IMG/VR virus record: IMGVR_UViG_3300009011_000065
Location: 1 to 20,089 of that record
Direction: 5' to 3' (one strand)
DNA length: 20,089 bases
Origin: a virus
The translations under genes were made by a program, and so were the position numbers. The notes beneath the pieces are model-generated. The model made no database searches and had not been told where the DNA came from. It saw nothing but the letters and a program-made list of their open reading frames with translations. Of the stretch, positions 1,922-18,889 are shown in pieces (the first letter of the stretch is position 1; every line of letters starts with the position of its first letter).

Positions 1922-2425
1922 ATGCCCGCAGAAGACAACCTCAATACAGCCGCCGGCTGCCGCCTCTTCATTGGCGGAAAGACCGGTGCGACCACCAAAA
2001 CCGAGTTCGAGGCCGACACCTATGTGCGTGTTGGTGAAATCGAAGACCTCGGTGAGTTCGGCGACACCTTCAGCAGCGTGACCTTCACGTCGCTCGAGGA
2101 TGGCCGTGTGCGCAAGTACAAGGGCACGGCTGACGCCGGCGACATGACCCTCACTGTGGGCCTGGATAACGGTGACACCGGCCAGAACGCGGTGAAGACC
2201 GCCCACAAAGACCGTAGCAAGGGCGATTACAACATCAAGGTCACCCTGAATGACGGCGACCCTGATGCCTCGCCGGCCATCAGCCCGACCACGTTCTACT
2301 ACCGGGCAAAGGTCATGAACAACACCGTGGCTGCAGGCGCGGCTGACAACGTGGTGCGCCGCAACATCACCCTGGGCATTAACTCGGAAATCCTCGAGCT
2401 GCTGCCGGCCCCTGTAACCCCATAA
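1922..2425 (+). CDS. Major tail tube protein
   Basis: A 167-residue protein with the hallmarks of siphovirus tail tube proteins (lambda gpV/HK97 type). Members polymerise as stacked hexamers around the tape measure. It has an early RLFIGGKTGATTKTEF segment, then YVRVGEIEDLGEFGDTFS and VTFTSLEDGRVRKYKGTADA. The 'D.gdm.ltv..d..D.gQ' region and a final beta-rich part with FYYRAKVMNN follow. A strong GGAGG at 1910-1914 precedes ATG 1922, fitting a very abundant protein. It sits in a 55-base gap rather than overlapping its neighbours and is bracketed by hairpins. The next gene is the tail assembly chaperone, as expected. Confidence 0.88.
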   Translation: MPAEDNLNTAAGCRLFIGGKTGATTKTEFEADTYVRVGEIEDLGEFGDTFSSVTFTSLEDGRVRKYKGTADAGDMTLTVGLDNGDTGQNAVKTAHKDRSKGDYNIKVTLNDGDPDASPAISPTTFYYRAKVMNNTVAAGAADNVVRRNITLGINSEILELLPAPVTP

Positions 2426-2465: not shown

Positions 2466-2795
2466 ATGAACAACACGTTGCACGGTACCGTTACTGTCAA
2501 GCTGGGTGATGAAGAGTTCACCCTGACCCCAACCCTGAAGGCTGTGCGGGCGATCGAGAGCCGCTTTGGTGGCCTGCGCGGTGCTTCCCAGGCGATCAAC
2601 TCACTCAGCGTCGACGGTTGCGCCGCCATTCTGGTGGCCGGCGCCGGCCTTGACGAGAAGGCCGCCAAGGCAGTGCCAGAGCAAGTCTGGCAGCACGGCG
2701 TTCTCGATGTGTCGACGCAGCTGAACGCCTACCTGGTTGCGCTGTACAACCCTCGCGGCAAAGAGTCGGGAAACGACCAAGCCGGGACGGCGTAA
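2466..2795 (+). CDS. Tail assembly chaperone, short (0-frame) form
   Basis: This 109-residue protein occupies the lambda gpG position between the tail tube and tape measure genes. It resembles the GTA gp11-like tail assembly chaperone family, with 'G.v.v.l.ge.ftL.PtlkAvraIE.rfGGl' over about residues 8-38. A small helical domain follows, with the segment STQLNAYLVALYNPRGK near 82-98. These chaperones bind the tape measure protein and recruit tail tube subunits, and are absent from the mature virion. The start has AGGA upstream (CACAGGACCTGCCTAATG). The frame ends at TAA 2793-2795. A -1 slip at 2768-2774 extends it into a second frame. Confidence 0.82.
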   Translation: MNNTLHGTVTVKLGDEEFTLTPTLKAVRAIESRFGGLRGASQAINSLSVDGCAAILVAGAGLDEKAAKAVPEQVWQHGVLDVSTQLNAYLVALYNPRGKESGNDQAGTA

Positions 2796-3043
2796 GCGTC
2801 ATTGAAGACGGAAGTTACGTTGACCGGCTTTATTCGATCGCTACGGGTTGGCTGGGCTGGGCGCCGGATGTTGCTTGGTGCACGCCGCTGCCTGAGCTTT
2901 TCATGGCACTTGATGCCCGGCTCGAATGGTCGCAAATGACCAACCCTTTCGGCAAAGGGAAGGCCCAAGGCGCCAAGCAGAAACCGAGCGCCTCGACAGT
3001 TGCCGACAAGCTGCGCCAGGCACTTACGGGCCGAGGCAATTGA
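2466..3043 (+). CDS. Tail assembly chaperone, -1 frameshift fusion (G-GT-like)
   Basis: Reading frame 0 to AAC 2772-2774, then slipping back one base and continuing at CGA 2774-2776, gives a 192-residue product: 103 residues plus an 89-residue extension ending at TGA 3041-3043. The extension runs through EDGSYVDRLYSIATGWLGW, APDVAWCTPLPELFMALDAR and LEWSQMTNPFGKGKAQGAKQ, and ends in a basic tail. It has no plausible separate start with a ribosome binding site near its beginning, yet it is clearly coding-like. This matches lambda gpGT, in which the T domain bridges chaperone and tail tube protein. The shift is inferred from slippery site, frame relation and gene position; efficiency cannot be judged from sequence. 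Confidence 0.8.
2768..2774 (+). promoter_or_regulatory. Programmed -1 ribosomal frameshift site (GGGAAAC)
   Basis: The heptamer G GGA AAC is in the correct phase of the chaperone frame, with zero-frame codons GGA AAC re-pairing as GGG AAA. It fits the X XXY YYZ rule and differs only in the last base from lambda's GGGAAAG. Two mutually exclusive small stems lie downstream. One is GCCG/CGGC at 2781-2791, six bases after the heptamer. The other is GACG-C/G-CGTC (2786-2800), which places the zero-frame stop codon in a GTAA tetraloop. Either might stimulate the shift. Confidence 0.82.
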
Positions 3044-3085: not shown

Positions 3086-6000
3086 ATGGCCGACCAACAG
3101 GTCCAGGGAATGCTGGTCCAGATCGAGGCGACCACCGCCCAGCTGCGTCGGGAGTTGGCCAATGCGGATCAGTTGGTCGCGCGGTCATCCCAGGCGATTG
3201 ACCAGAGTCTGGCTAAGGTCGATTCGGCTTTTGATCGAGCTGGCGCAGCAGCGCAGCAAGCCGGCACTCTCATGCGCGGCGCTTTCGCGGCAGTGGCCGG
3301 CGCCGGTCTGATCGGTAGCATCATCCAGCAAGTTGACGCCTATGGGCAGATGTCTGACCGGATGAAGGCTGCAGCTGGTAGCGCAAGTGAGTACCAGCTG
3401 GTTCAGGATCACCTGCTACAAACTGCGCAGGAAACCTACCGTCCTCTGGCTGAGGCGCAAGAGCTGTACATCCGCACTGCTGACGTTATGCGTAGCCTGG
3501 GCTTTAACACCCAAGAGACGTTGGATATCACGGATAGCTTCAGCTTTTTGCTGGTGACCAACGCCGCGGCTGCAGATAAAGCTGGGTCGGCCTTGGATGC
3601 CTATTCGAAGGCGCTGCAGACCGGCAAGGTAGAGGCGGATGGCTGGGTTTCCATTCAGGACGCCATGCCGACCATCGTCACTGCGATTGCCACCGCCACC
3701 GGCAAGAGCGCCGAGGAAATCCGAAAGCTCGGCGTGCAGGGTAAGCTGTCGCTCGAAGACATCAATACTGGCCTGCTGCGCACCGTGGAGGTCAACCGCA
3801 AGGCTGCGGCCGACATGTCCACCAGCGTTCAGGACGCGATGGTGAACATCAGCAACGCCATTCAGGCGTTCTTGGGCGGCATGGAGGAGCAAACCGGCAT
3901 CGTCGCAGGCTTTGCGAACGTGCTGATTGCGCTGGCTGACAATGTGGACCTTGTGGCCGTGGCCATGGGCGGCGTCGGTGCAGCTGCGCTGACCAACTAC
4001 GTTGTGAAAACTGGGCTGGCCGTGCAGGCGGCGCGGGCTGACCGGGCCGCACGAGTTGCCCAGGCTGAGGCAACACTGCAGTCGGCGATAGCAGATCAGC
4101 GGAAGGCTCAGACGGCTACCATTCTCGCTGAGCGGGAAGCGATTGCGGCGCGAGGCACCGCAGTTCAGACCCAAATGTCCATCCAGCTTGCGACCGCGCG
4201 GACAAAGGAGGCCGCAGCAACCACCGCAGTAGCAACTGCTCAGTCTGGCTTGAAGGCCGCTTCGGCCGGTCTCCTCGCAGGCTTGGGAGGTCCGATGGGG
4301 CTGGCGATCCTCGCAGGCACTGCCGCGGCAAGTTTCCTCTTGCTTCGTGACAACGCGGACCAGGCTGGGGTCAGTCTGGAGGACATGCAAAAGCCCTTAT
4401 CCCAACTGCGGGAGGAGTTCCAGAAGCTCAACCAGGACCAGCGCGAAGCTGCCCTGGTGAAATGGCATCAGGAGCAGATTAACGCTACGGACAAGGTCAG
4501 GGATGCCTACGGAGATCTTGCCCAGGCAATACGCTCTGCGACAGTGACAGCTCCTGTTCGCGACTCGGGCGGCCAGTACAACAAGCAGCTTGCCGATTAT
4601 CAGGGGATCATCGATCGGCTGAACGAGGCTCGTTCCTCTGGTGCCAACCTTGCCCCGATCCTCAAGGAAGTGGGTAGTCGCCTGCAGTTGCCGGCGGCTA
4701 CGTTGCAGAGTTGGATCACGCAGGCCGGCGCCGTCAGCGATGCAGATCAGCGCTCAGGCCTGATTGCCGAAACCTTGCGTGTCCTCACTGGGGTCACCAA
4801 GGAAAACACAGTCGCGACCGAAGCGAACAATGCCGCGAAGAGCGGCATGAGCAGCGCTGGCCAGACTTACTTGGAAACTCTGCAGAAGCAGCTCGGCGGC
4901 CTGCAAGACAACAATGACGCGATTAAGATCGCGAACCGCTACATCGCCGAGAATGCGGACCTCACCGAAACAGATCGCCAGGCCATCCTGTCGGCAGCTA
5001 ACGCCATCGAGGCGCAGAAAAAGGCCAATGACAAGGCGAACAAGTCCAAGCGCGAGGGGGAATCAAAGTCTGAGCAGGCTGCCAAGAAGCAGCTGACGGA
5101 TTTCAAGGCGGCAGAAGAGGGCTACAAGCGCCAGATCGAACTGATCAACACCACTGGTGACAAGCAGAAGAACGCCACGGAAGTCGCGAAACTCTCCTTC
5201 GAGCTTCAGGAGGGCAAGCTCGGCAATCTGTCGAAAGCCCAGCAAAAGCGCCTGCTTGAGTTGGCCGCCGAGCTGGATACCCTGAACAAGATCAAGAAGG
5301 CCAACGAAGACGATCTAAAGCTCAGCGCTTTCAAGGCTGCTCAGCAAGCCGGCACGCAGTCGGCGGTAAATGGCTATGCGCAGGAGCTGGCCGGAATTGG
5401 CCTGGGGGACAAGGCCCGCGACCGTATGCGGTCTGAGCTGGCACTGCGTCAGAAGTATGTCGAAGACCTCCAGTCCCTGAATGAGCAGCGGAACACCGGG
5501 CAGATTGAGCCGGAGCTGTATGCGAGCGAAACGCAGGTCCTCCAGGAGGAGCTCGACAAGAGGCTGGAAGCTCAGCAGAACTACTATGCGGCGATTGACG
5601 AGCAGCAGTCCAACTGGATGAACGGCGTTCGCGAAGCGTGGGCGAACTTTGCCGACGAGGCGCAGAACTATTCAGCCCAGGCTGCCGATTTGACCAACAG
5701 CACCCTCGGCAGCGCCAGGGGTGAACTGAGCACCTTCCTAAAGGATGTTGCGACCGGAGCGGAAGATGCTGGCGATGCACTGAACAACATGCTGGGCGGG
5801 TTTGCAGAATCTGTCCTCAACGCGCTGGCCGACATGGCGGCGCAATGGCTGGTTTACCAGGGCGTGCAGATGCTCGTCGGAAAAACGACCCAGCTCAGTG
5901 CTGCTGGGATGATGAGCGCGAATGCCCAGGCAACCGCGTTGCAGGCCGGCCTCGCTGCCTTTGCATCTACCGCTGCCATTCCGATTGTCGGTCCCGCCTT

Positions 6001-6484
6001 GGCACCTGGCGCAATGGCTACTGCCCTGACTATTGCTAACCCGCTGGCTGCGGCTGTGGGGATGACAGCGATGTCTGGGGCGGGTTTCATGGAGGGTGGT
6101 TATACCGGGAACGGTCGTCGAGACGAAGTCGCAGGCCCGGTCCACCGGGGGGAATACGTCTTTGACGCAGAAGCAACCGCCCGGATAGGAGTTGGCACTC
6201 TTGAAGCCATCAGCAATGGGCGTGCTGCTTTTATCGGCGGCCCAGGCAGTTCTTCGGTCGGCACTGCCGATGGAGGTGATTCTGTCGGCGGTGCTCAGCC
6301 CCAGGCGCAGCTGCCCCCGAACGTTAACTTGTACGAGGACGCCAGCCGCGCGGGGCAGGTCCAGCACTCCACTGGCCCTGATGGTCGTCAGATCTTGGAT
6401 ATCTGCGTGGCGAACATCAGGCAGGGTGGTCAGTTGGCCAAGGCATATGAGCAGTATTACGGGGCGAAAAGGGTAGGGCGATGA
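3086..6484 (+). CDS. Tail tape measure protein
   Basis: At 1132 residues this is the longest gene here, and it sits directly after the chaperone, as tape measure genes do. The N-terminal part (about 1-240) matches the tape measure N-terminal domain, with the segments DAYGQMSDRMKAAAGSASEY, LYIRTADVMRSLGFN and WVSIQDAMPTIVTAIATATG. Hydrophobic stretches occur near residues 280-310 and 395-415 and around 935-1000. Long Ala/Gln/Lys-rich coiled-coil segments lie between (about 310-380 and 590-870). The C-terminus carries the typical FMEGGYTGNGRRDEVAGPVH and RGEYVFDAEATARIG segment. The protein sets tail length and is ejected with the DNA. ATG 3086 follows CTGGAG at good spacing. The end overlaps the next start (ATGA). 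Confidence 0.93.
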   Translation: MADQQVQGMLVQIEATTAQLRRELANADQLVARSSQAIDQSLAKVDSAFDRAGAAAQQAGTLMRGAFAAVAGAGLIGSIIQQVDAYGQMSDRMKAAAGSASEYQLVQDHLLQTAQETYRPLAEAQELYIRTADVMRSLGFNTQETLDITDSFSFLLVTNAAAADKAGSALDAYSKALQTGKVEADGWVSIQDAMPTIVTAIATATGKSAEEIRKLGVQGKLSLEDINTGLLRTVEVNRKAAADMSTSVQDAMVNISNAIQAFLGGMEEQTGIVAGFANVLIALADNVDLVAVAMGGVGAAALTNYVVKTGLAVQAARADRAARVAQAEATLQSAIADQRKAQTATILAEREAIAARGTAVQTQMSIQLATARTKEAAATTAVATAQSGLKAASAGLLAGLGGPMGLAILAGTAAASFLLLRDNADQAGVSLEDMQKPLSQLREEFQKLNQDQREAALVKWHQEQINATDKVRDAYGDLAQAIRSATVTAPVRDSGGQYNKQLADYQGIIDRLNEARSSGANLAPILKEVGSRLQLPAATLQSWITQAGAVSDADQRSGLIAETLRVLTGVTKENTVATEANNAAKSGMSSAGQTYLETLQKQLGGLQDNNDAIKIANRYIAENADLTETDRQAILSAANAIEAQKKANDKANKSKREGESKSEQAAKKQLTDFKAAEEGYKRQIELINTTGDKQKNATEVAKLSFELQEGKLGNLSKAQQKRLLELAAELDTLNKIKKANEDDLKLSAFKAAQQAGTQSAVNGYAQELAGIGLGDKARDRMRSELALRQKYVEDLQSLNEQRNTGQIEPELYASETQVLQEELDKRLEAQQNYYAAIDEQQSNWMNGVREAWANFADEAQNYSAQAADLTNSTLGSARGELSTFLKDVATGAEDAGDALNNMLGGFAESVLNALADMAAQWLVYQGVQMLVGKTTQLSAAGMMSANAQATALQAGLAAFASTAAIPIVGPALAPGAMATALTIANPLAAAVGMTAMSGAGFMEGGYTGNGRRDEVAGPVHRGEYVFDAEATARIGVGTLEAISNGRAAFIGGPGSSSVGTADGGDSVGGAQPQAQLPPNVNLYEDASRAGQVQHSTGPDGRQILDICVANIRQGGQLAKAYEQYYGAKRVGR

Positions 6485-7030: not shown

Positions 7031-7390
7031 ATGAAAAAAGCGTTGTTTGTTGCATTGATGGGCGCTGTACTCGCGTCTGGTTGTACCGTGCGCGTCGCCG
7101 ATATGACAGTTGCCAGCACCAAAAACTACAACCTGAACTCGTCCAAGTTCGTGAAGGGTAAGCGGGTCATTGGCGAGGATAACTACCCGGTGATCCTCTT
7201 CCCATTGGGCTTTCCCAACATCAAAACCGCTATGGATGACGCTATCCAGAAAGACCGATGCGCAGTCGGCCTGAGCGATGTGGTTATGACTTCAGTCAAC
7301 CACTCCTTCATTTTCGGCATGATCGGTTATCGGGTCGAAGGTGATCTGATCATCGACCAGACGCAGCCTGGATGTGCATCCAAGGCCTAG
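7031..7390 (+). CDS. Prophage-encoded lipoprotein (moron), possible lysogenic conversion factor
   Basis: The 119-residue product has a textbook lipoprotein signal: MKK, a hydrophobic core, and the lipobox LASGC with Cys18 as the lipidated residue. Thr at +2 predicts outer-membrane sorting. The mature part has [20 protein letters not shown] and [17 protein letters not shown], and two late cysteines (DRC and PGC) that could form a disulfide. Proteins with this outline occur in Pseudomonas and Acinetobacter as uncharacterised lipoproteins. The gene has its own extended -10 promoter, an AACGGAGC ribosome binding site and a strong terminator, the structure of a moron. By analogy with lambda Bor or T5 Llp it may alter the host surface or block superinfection. 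That role is inference. Confidence 0.8.
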
Positions 7391-16581: not shown

Positions 16582-17013
16582 ATGCGTACATCGCAACGCG
16601 GCTTGAGCCTCATCAAGTCGTTCGAGGGCCTGCGCCTACAGGCCTATCAGGATTCAGTCGGAGTCTGGACGATCGGCTACGGGACCACTCGTGGCGTGAA
16701 AGCCGGGATGAAGATCAGCAAGGATCAGGCTGAGCGGATGCTGTTAAACGATGTAGCGCGGTTCGAACCAGAGGTTGAGCGCCTGATCACTGCGCCGCTG
16801 AACCAGGATCAGTGGGACGCCTTGATAAGCTTCACCTACAACCTGGGTGCGGCCAATCTCGAATCGTCCACGCTCCGCCGGCTGCTCAATGCTGGCGATT
16901 ACGCAGCAGCTGCTGAGCAGTTCACGCGCTGGAACAAGGCCGGCGGGCAAGTACTTGCTGGCCTGACTCGTCGGCGTGCCGCTGAGCGGGATCTGTTCCT
17001 GGGGGCTGCGTGA
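16582..17013 (+). CDS. Endolysin: T4-type lysozyme (GH24)
   Basis: This 143-residue protein is a T4-type muramidase that cuts the glycan backbone of peptidoglycan at the end of the lytic cycle. The catalytic pattern is complete: Glu15 (SFEGLRLQAYQD), Asp24 and Thr30 (VWTIGYGTT), with the same spacing as T4 lysozyme E11/D20/T26. Further family landmarks are LNQDQWDALISFTYNLGAAN and GLTRRRAAERDLFL near the end. There is no signal peptide or SAR helix, so export should need a holin. ATG 16582, after CTGGAG, is chosen over the longer frame from 16510, which would cross the terminator. The stop overlaps the spanin start. Confidence 0.93.
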   Translation: MRTSQRGLSLIKSFEGLRLQAYQDSVGVWTIGYGTTRGVKAGMKISKDQAERMLLNDVARFEPEVERLITAPLNQDQWDALISFTYNLGAANLESSTLRRLLNAGDYAAAAEQFTRWNKAGGQVLAGLTRRRAAERDLFLGAA

Positions 17014-17537
17014 CCTGGCTCGGCGCGGTACCGGCTTGGTGTTGGTGGTTGATCGCTCTGGTTCTGGTCGCCGGCGGGCAGCAGTACCGGGTGGTGGTTG
17101 CTGATGGGGCGGCGGCCGATGCCAGGGGTGAGACTGCCAAGTCCGACAAGGCCCTGGCCGACTACCGCCTTGAGGTATCCGAGCGCGACCGGCGCGCCGC
17201 CGCCCATGCCAGAGCTGAAGAACAGCGCCGCCAGGCTTTGGCGGACGAGGAGGGTGAGAGTGCACGACAGAAACTGGAACTGGCCCAAGGCCGCGCCGCT
17301 GCTGCTGAGTCTGCTGCTGGTGGGCTGCGCGGGGAAATCGCCCGACTGCGCGCCGGCCGAGCAGCAACCTGCGACACCATCGCTACCCAGCAGCGCAAGG
17401 CAGGAGCCTCTGCCGTCGTGGTGCTCGGGGGATTGCTTGAAGAAGCTGACCGAATGGCGGGAGTCTTCGCGGATGCGCTTGAGAGAAGTCGAGTAGCGGG
17501 TAGGGCTTGCGAAGCTATTGTAGATAAATTCAGATAA
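17010..17537 (+). CDS. Inner-membrane spanin (Rz-like, DUF2514 type)
   Basis: The 175-residue product starts at GTG 17010, overlapping the lysozyme stop, with CTGGGGG upstream. It has an N-terminal membrane anchor (about residues 10-23, WCWWLIALVLVAGG). A long Ala/Glu/Arg-rich periplasmic coiled coil covers about 35-115, and a C-terminal helical part contains VVVLGGLLEEADRMAGVFAD. This is the layout of i-spanins in Pseudomonas phages (DUF2514-like), which join an outer-membrane lipoprotein partner and fuse the membranes as the last lysis step. The partner gene is nested inside it in another frame. Confidence 0.82.
   Translation: MTWLGAVPAWCWWLIALVLVAGGQQYRVVVADGAAADARGETAKSDKALADYRLEVSERDRRAAAHARAEEQRRQALADEEGESARQKLELAQGRAAAAESAAGGLRGEIARLRAGRAATCDTIATQQRKAGASAVVVLGGLLEEADRMAGVFADALERSRVAGRACEAIVDKFR
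17260..17496 (+). CDS. Outer-membrane spanin lipoprotein (Rz1-like), nested in the Rz gene
   Basis: This frame lies wholly inside the i-spanin gene. GTG 17260 has AGGAGG six bases upstream and gives 78 residues. The signal reads MHDRNWNWPKAAPLLLSLLL followed by VGC, with Cys23 as the lipidated residue. The mature protein is short and Pro/Ser-rich in the middle (EQQPATPSLPSSARQEPLPS), typical of Rz1 proteins, and has a further WCSGDC motif. An alternative GTG at 17254 is in frame, but its spacing to the ribosome binding site is too short. Full nesting is the lambda Rz/Rz1 arrangement. Translation of two frames from one stretch explains the constrained codon use there. Confidence 0.85.
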   Translation: MHDRNWNWPKAAPLLLSLLLVGCAGKSPDCAPAEQQPATPSLPSSARQEPLPSWCSGDCLKKLTEWRESSRMRLREVE

Positions 17538-17684: not shown

Positions 17685-18080
17685 TTAATTGGTTTCGTTC
17701 TCTATTATGCTAAAAATACTTGTTACATTTTTTACTTGCGACATTGCTTCGGTGTTTGTAATGTGCTCGTCTAAAAAATAATCCGCTCTAACTCGTAGTG
17801 CGTGCATTGCATGTATGCGTGTTCCGAGTCTTCTGATTGTAGCTTGTCTTTCTTTATTTTGGCATATGAAGTTGCATAGTGTATCTGAAAGTTTTATGTG
17901 TGATCCACCTTTCATATTGCTAACCCCTAGGCTAAGGTTTTGATCTGCTAGGTGAAGAGTCTCATGGTAGGCGCTGTAATATGATCTACTTACAATGTTT
18001 CGGTGGTCGGTCTCGCTCAGGTTGCTACACGTCAGCAACTCTTGAGACCAAATCAGGAAGCTTTTTGAGGTGATTGGCAT
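17685..18080 (-). CDS. UPF0332/HEPN-like protein, second gene of a TPR-HEPN pair
   Basis: The 131-residue protein shows the pattern of small HEPN proteins of UPF0332 type. SRSYYSAYHETLHLAD at 31-46 matches the family's 'SRaYYaafHaa..ll'. LRVRADYFLDEHI at 95-107 matches the late helix 'LR..ADY'. Between them are GGSHIKLSDTLC, like the family's 'KHs....f' turn, and an additional R88-x4-H93. HEPN proteins are often RNA-cleaving toxins or defence effectors, or their non-catalytic relatives. The gene starts 26 bases after the TPR gene on the same strand, with only a weak GGA upstream, so translation likely depends on the TPR message. A/T content is much higher than in the phage structural genes, suggesting acquired cargo. 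Function is inferred from family type and context only. Confidence 0.7.
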   Translation of the reverse strand: MPITSKSFLIWSQELLTCSNLSETDHRNIVSRSYYSAYHETLHLADQNLSLGVSNMKGGSHIKLSDTLCNFICQNKERQATIRRLGTRIHAMHALRVRADYFLDEHITNTEAMSQVKNVTSIFSIIENETN

Positions 18081-18106: not shown

Positions 18107-18889
18107 TCAATGGTTGCCGTCAGTTTGCGCCCTGTGGTACGGAATGAAAACGTACATAATGTCTTTGAGTATGTGGCACGCATCTGAGTCAACAATACGA
18201 TCGCACAGCGTCTCATTGAGTTCATGTATTAGGCTGGCAGTGCCCTCTACTGCAGCGTAAAAAGTCACTGTTGAACCGCCGTAATTGTCGGTTCTTCTGA
18301 AGTTCCCTTTTTCGAAACTTATGTCTCTATCGCGCATGACGCTGGCTGCGATTTTGTAGATTCTATTCGCGTCTTCGTCAGATATGTTATTCTGCTCAAA
18401 TAGTGATGCAAGTTGTAAGGTTGCTCTGGCGTTAATATTTGCTTCAAGTGCGTCGAGGTCTATTGTATTAAGATTGCTCTTGACGGTATCGGAGAAAATT
18501 CGCGGCTTGAATATTATCTGGGCAGCTTCAGCGAGGTCAATCAATGTATAATGATCTGGCGATAGTTCGGCTGCTACTTTATAATGAAGGCAGGCTTCTT
18601 CAGGTTTTTTGAATTTAGTAAGTGCGTGAGCGTAGTTTGTATGAATGTTGTGGTCGTTAGGGTCGAGTGTTAATGTTTCTTCAAATGTAGAGAGTGATTT
18701 TTCTACGTTGTTCTCGATGGTATATAAAATCCCAAGGCAGATTCGTGCGGCTATAAAGTGCGCGGACTCTAGATTTTTAATGTCACGACGAAGTCGTGCG
18801 GAAGTGAATTGGTCTAGAGGGGAACCTGAGTTAGCAAGAATATTTAGTTCTTCTACTAAGGTATCGCTTATTGTTTTTGCCACAGCCAT
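18107..18889 (-). CDS. TPR-repeat protein, first gene of a TPR-HEPN pair
   Basis: This 260-residue protein has at least two tetratricopeptide motifs. One covers about 44-77 (ICLGILYTIENNVEKSLSTF to LDPND). The other covers about 78-111 (IHTNYAHALTKFKKPEEACL to LSPDH). Further helices fill the N- and C-terminal parts, the latter with DRDISFEKGNFRRTD and YHRAQTDGNH at the end. There is no signal peptide or membrane segment, so it is cytoplasmic. TPR repeats bind protein partners; the natural partner here is the HEPN-like product downstream. It might sense infection, hold the HEPN protein inactive, or scaffold it. ATG 18889 is preceded by GGAG at good spacing. Codon use is AT-rich, unlike the late genes. 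I do not recognise a named family for the full length. Confidence 0.78.
   Translation of the reverse strand: MAVAKTISDTLVEELNILANSGSPLDQFTSARLRRDIKNLESAHFIAARICLGILYTIENNVEKSLSTFEETLTLDPNDHNIHTNYAHALTKFKKPEEACLHYKVAAELSPDHYTLIDLAEAAQIIFKPRIFSDTVKSNLNTIDLDALEANINARATLQLASLFEQNNISDEDANRIYKIAASVMRDRDISFEKGNFRRTDNYGGSTVTFYAAVEGTASLIHELNETLCDRIVDSDACHILKDIMYVFIPYHRAQTDGNH

Follow-up and report, generated by a model that had tools for sequence, protein, structure and literature searches.

A predicted lambda-type programmed −1 frameshift at GGGAAAC in the tail-chaperone genes of a Pseudomonas phage

Gene order and reading frames of the locus

The sequence analysed, referred to below as the window, is the 20,089-base virus record IMGVR_UViG_3300009011_000065 over its full length. 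The locus described here is the tail module of a Pseudomonas tailed phage (prophage), and the G relatives in bacterial genomes that are closest to it, from P. capeferrum and P. putida, share 99% protein identity with the window. The genes follow the order tail tube, G, T and tape measure, with overlapping G and T frames, and the features are as follows.

1922..2425, + strand: major tail (tail tube) protein gene, the upstream neighbour of G (PHROG 158, E = 3.5e-29)
2466..2795, + strand: G-like tail assembly chaperone ORF encoding the short product of 109 residues (PHROG 6454, E = 5e-45)
2768..2774, + strand: slippery heptamer G_GGA_AAC, in phase with G and conserved in relatives
2774..3043, + strand: T-like frame of 89 codons and a TGA stop, in the −1 frame (PHROG 7493, E = 8e-25)
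2779..2830, + strand: predicted interrupted stem-loop, a probable stimulator (−24.2 kcal/mol)
3086..6484, + strand: tape measure protein gene (PHROG 339, E = 1e-195; Pfam TMP_3, E = 8e-47)

The tail tube gene also gives weak Pfam matches to Phage_tail_3, TTP_11 and TTP_12. The G ORF begins with ATG at 2466 and ends with TAA at 2793–2795. The heptamer is read as G GGA AAC in the G frame, which is the X XXY YYZ phase, and starts 25 nt 5′ of the G stop codon. The T-like frame (sense codons 2774–3040, TGA 3041–3043) would provide the C-terminal part of a predicted fusion of 192 residues. A preliminary description of this DNA had reported both an in-phase heptamer 25 bases before the chaperone stop and a frame difference of −1, with an 89-residue frame entered exactly at the heptamer; the coordinates and the reading phase bear out each of these points.

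GGGAAAC is the only in-phase site of the form (A/G/C)3-AAA-N in the ∼14.1 kb of predicted coding sequence of the window. Such a heptamer appeared in 6.5% of trials when G was recoded synonymously with the codon usage of the window, a figure that makes it mildly unusual by chance alone in a single sequence and is suggestive only. The reality of the heptamer is settled by its conservation among relatives and not by this single-sequence figure.

Conservation of the heptamer

G and T served separately as queries for protein similarity in IMG/VR, phage records and bacterial genomes, and the alignment of relatives that had been proposed as a check of the heptamer was carried out. An in-phase GGGAAAG (104 regions) or GGGAAAC (42 regions) is present in 146 of 146 distinct junction regions. 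The heptamer was found in 73 of 73 distinct G relatives, a tally in which overlapping in-phase sites were resolved by choosing the GGGAAAN form, and in 70 of 70 T relatives. One of the six peptide patterns used in one of the relative searches overlaps the heptamer and introduces a slight bias; the T-based search and the search for P. aeruginosa-type relatives agree with this slightly biased search on the conservation of the heptamer. Among the relatives that keep it are the P. aeruginosa phage clade (∼41–45% identity) and the Rhizobium-phage types L005 (31% identity) and L336 (22% identity). Relatives that lack the heptamer and retain both frames with a separate T start, which would speak against a frameshift, were looked for in this set and not found. 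One P. aeruginosa-type relative (L406, 1201–1600) carries GGGAAAC rather than GGGAAAG; its T frame ends 53 nt past the G stop and is either decayed or affected by a sequencing error.

Codon usage was compared in 66 G genes of equal length with a median pairwise nucleotide identity of 71%. Codon 102, which lies inside the heptamer, is GGA in all 66 genes, and other well-conserved glycine codons in the body of G use three to four synonyms each. The codon preceding GGA 102 takes eight forms, every one of which ends in G, and there is almost no variation at codons 106, 107 and 109, in the stretch shared by the two frames. Judged from the aligned sequences, the heptamer is conserved in homologues beyond the requirement of the protein.

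Coding evidence for the T frame and alternative explanations

In the window the −1 frame opens at 2654; the ATG at 2903, within the conserved T block, is the first ATG, GTG or TTG in it, as expected from the earlier claim that the 89-residue frame has no start of its own. In 52 of the 146 distinct regions a stop closes the −1 frame no more than 6 nt 5′ of the heptamer, so that entry into the T frame must there occur at or after the heptamer. The variability of the T frame at codon positions 1, 2 and 3 is 0.108, 0.035 and 0.305, respectively; changes concentrated at third positions are the pattern, in sequence comparison, of a translated frame under selection at the protein level. The fusion matches PHROG 7493 with residues 21–191 aligned to positions 2–170 of the profile, which suggests that the profile was built from fusion-length proteins.

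T could instead be a separate gene whose translation begins at an overlapping or noncanonical codon through reinitiation or coupled initiation; the window offers ATT 2801 and the internal ATG 2903 as candidates, and some relatives have a GTG where G stops. This is how GenBank annotators treated the P. aeruginosa phages, the T start of which is placed at a GTG overlapping the G stop (the T start of phage VW-6S is placed at an internal codon; records L001–L004), and a GTG is present at the overlap in 59 of the 146 relatives, 24 or 30 nt after the start of the heptamer. However, the window and 83 other distinct relatives (84 of 146) contain no ATG, GTG or TTG near the junction in the −1 frame. 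The GTG is itself the form that a valine codon takes with a TGA stop and is GTA in relatives with a TAA stop, as dual coding requires, and an invariant heptamer is left unexplained. A separate T start was rejected since it is not conserved among the 146 distinct regions; we regard this explanation as very improbable, and the annotated T starts in L001, L002, L003 and L004 are probably wrong.

Still less probable is that the heptamer is kept for protein or chance reasons and that the −1 ORF is unexpressed or decayed. The 6.5% of synonymous recodings of G that contain a single heptamer of this kind leave some room for chance, but the third base of GGA and the G preceding it are fixed in all relatives despite the available synonyms and a varying preceding codon, and the T frame, which varies mostly at third positions, is recognizable down to ∼27% identity. 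Slippage of RNA polymerase instead of the ribosome would lead to an identical fusion protein, but this process generally depends on longer tracts of A or T, the run here is only GGGAAA and the conserved feature is a codon-phased heptamer; we consider this account equally improbable.

Downstream RNA structure

The window is predicted to form a stem (∼2779–2830) that starts 4–5 nt after the heptamer, with a folding energy of −24.2 kcal/mol (z = −3.7 against dinucleotide shuffles). The stem is interrupted and consists of helices P1 (∼2779–2785 with 2824–2830) and P2 (∼2788–2795 with 2815–2822). In the preliminary description the G stop codon was placed in a GNRA-type loop of a stem just downstream of the heptamer. 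That small hairpin has an energy of about −4.7 kcal/mol versus −24.2 kcal/mol for the longer stem and an ensemble probability of ∼3e-5, and it was rejected; the larger predicted stem overlaps the same place, and in its fold the G stop codon sits in helix P2 and not in a tetraloop.

Compared with synonymous recodings that keep the T protein, the fold of the window has a p value of 0.015, or 0.055 if the T-only part alone is recoded, and several relatives have stronger folds than the window in this control. The predicted stem recurs in close relatives: pairing is kept in 95.7% of the cells tested across 46 relatives. No compensatory (double-sided) changes were found in the stem among these 46 relatives, and covariation support for the longer stem was rejected because all of the standard-pair changes are one-sided. 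A mixed alignment fails for the analysis of covariation owing to a one-base shift of the 5′ arm in part of the family: the AGCCGG arm is displaced by one base in another subgroup and still meets CCGGCT. At the corresponding position a Rhizobium phage has a stem of different sequence (−27.3 kcal/mol, z = −3.9), and its relative L336 folds poorly. A universal stem was rejected, as the P. aeruginosa clade and lineages such as L124, L219 and L153 fold no better than their synonymous recodings; several lineages with an AAG site have a weak stem. No Rfam match was found in the window. From the predicted folds, the downstream stem is a probable stimulator of the shift in this phage and is not universal in the family.

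The A-site codon

Across the family tree the A-site codon switches between AAC and AAG at least four times, with support for two of the changes. In E. coli, AAC as the second codon in an A_AAA context gives a much weaker shift site than AAG (PMC5009743). A fold of −22 kcal/mol or stronger is predicted for 40 of 42 AAC sequences versus 49 of 114 AAG sequences, samples that are not independent. We consider it a doubtful proposition that the presumably weaker AAC sites are retained only with a strong downstream stem; this association was set aside as a result, since the tree requires only four changes (two supported), too few independent ones for a test. If it were true, the family would offer a natural series of phages that maintain the G:GT ratio by balancing the slipperiness of the site against RNA structure. 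The AAC site should also allow the slip mechanism to show in the junction peptide: slippage of two tRNAs would give Gly-Asn-Arg, and P-site slippage before decoding of the A site would give Gly-Lys-Arg. At a GGGAAAG site both mechanisms would give Lys and would not be distinguishable by the junction peptide.

Protein families and predicted folds

The Pfam family Phage_TAC_11, which contains the gene-transfer-agent gp10 proteins, is matched weakly by 21 of 22 members of the G family; the window G scores 19.7 bits, below the curated cutoff of 27.8. No match to NCBIfam was found for G or T, and a sequence search of the PDB gave no significant match. The AlphaFold2 model of the G family is fairly confident (pLDDT 83.8, pTM 0.77). 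A Foldseek search with this model gave no significant match in the PDB (best E = 0.63). The HK97 tail assembly chaperone (PDB entry 2ob9) ranks second among the PDB chains that were re-aligned to the model, and its match to the fold of the window G is weak, with a Z score of 3.7 over 82 residues and a sequence identity of 8% in the structural alignment. In BFVD, the top viral matches to G include several predicted phage proteins that carry the name tail assembly chaperone (E = 0.003–0.01). The T model is helical and of low confidence (pTM 0.46), and a fold search with it was uninformative. The modelled similarity of the G fold to known tail assembly chaperones is supportive and not conclusive.

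Comparison with known systems

Frameshifting in lambda G/GT and its wide conservation are established (reviewed in PMC5009743, citing Levin, Xu, Hendrix and Duda). The locus of the window resembles lambda G/GT (G_GGA_AAG) in its predicted −1 shift at a GGGAAAN site late in G, in a T frame without its own start and in its position before the tape measure gene (PMC5009743 and general knowledge). It differs in its A-site codon, which is AAG in lambda and AAC in the window, and in its predicted downstream stem of ∼50 nt. No profile match to lambda G was found in the libraries searched (Pfam, PHROG and NCBIfam).

The heptamer GGGAAAC has been proposed as the tail-chaperone shift site of Burkholderia phage KL1 (gp18/gp19; PMC3483164) and Caulobacter phage Colossus (PMC3556154) and is listed as such for the haloarchaeal virus HCTV-1 (PMC5009743). 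These are different phages that are likened to the window by the site alone, which is identical. GGGAAAC tail-chaperone sites are thus already published for other phages, and the present locus adds another example.

Pseudomonas phage VW-6S and P. aeruginosa phages (Alize, vB_Pae_CF53a and others) have homologous G and T frames with an in-phase GGGAAAG; in contrast to the window, their A-site codon is AAG, the frames are annotated as separate hypothetical proteins with no frameshift noted, and the P. aeruginosa clade is without a strong stem. VW-6S also has an additional annotated gene of 924 bases (L001, 2682–3605) between T and the tape measure gene, which is absent from the window.

Proposed mechanism

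Gene order, reading phase, a heptamer in 146 of 146 distinct regions and a −1 frame under protein-level selection support a programmed −1 ribosomal frameshift of the lambda G/GT type at GGGAAAC, as the preliminary description had suggested, and from this comparative evidence we assign the reading a probability of roughly 0.95. As read from the sequence, most ribosomes would translate 2466–2795 and stop, giving the chaperone of 109 residues. The conservation suggests that a minority, with tRNAs on GGA and AAC, would slip back to GGG and AAA, resume at CGA 2774 and produce a less abundant fusion of 192 residues ending at 3040. The stem located 4–5 nt downstream probably makes the ribosome pause and so increases the frequency of the shift. 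By analogy, the G part may bind the tape measure protein and the T part may recruit the tail-tube protein, and both parts would, as in lambda, be absent from the virion. The frequency of shifting, the part played by the stem and the functions of the proteins are features that we infer.

There is strong comparative evidence that PHROGs 6454 and 7493, which are listed as having unknown function, correspond to the G and T frames of a frameshifted tail chaperone, and T genes of Pseudomonas phages that are annotated with doubtful starts ought to be re-annotated as fusions. What is added here is the family-wide comparative evidence for these two PHROGs and a corrected structural claim.

Other features of the window

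A small predicted lipoprotein (7031–7390, + strand) is inserted between tail genes and is possibly a cargo gene; neither Pfam nor PADLOC gave a match to it. Two genes on the − strand (17685–18080 and 18107–18889), opposite to the late genes of the phage, lie beyond the lysis genes and encode an unmatched protein of 131 residues and a TPR-repeat protein; neither has a PADLOC match. The DUF2514 (Rz-like spanin) gene at 17010–17537 contains a second, nested frame (17098–17496, + strand) with a lipobox-like stretch in its product, LLLSLLLVGCAGK, a feature that an embedded Rz1 spanin lipoprotein would be expected to have.
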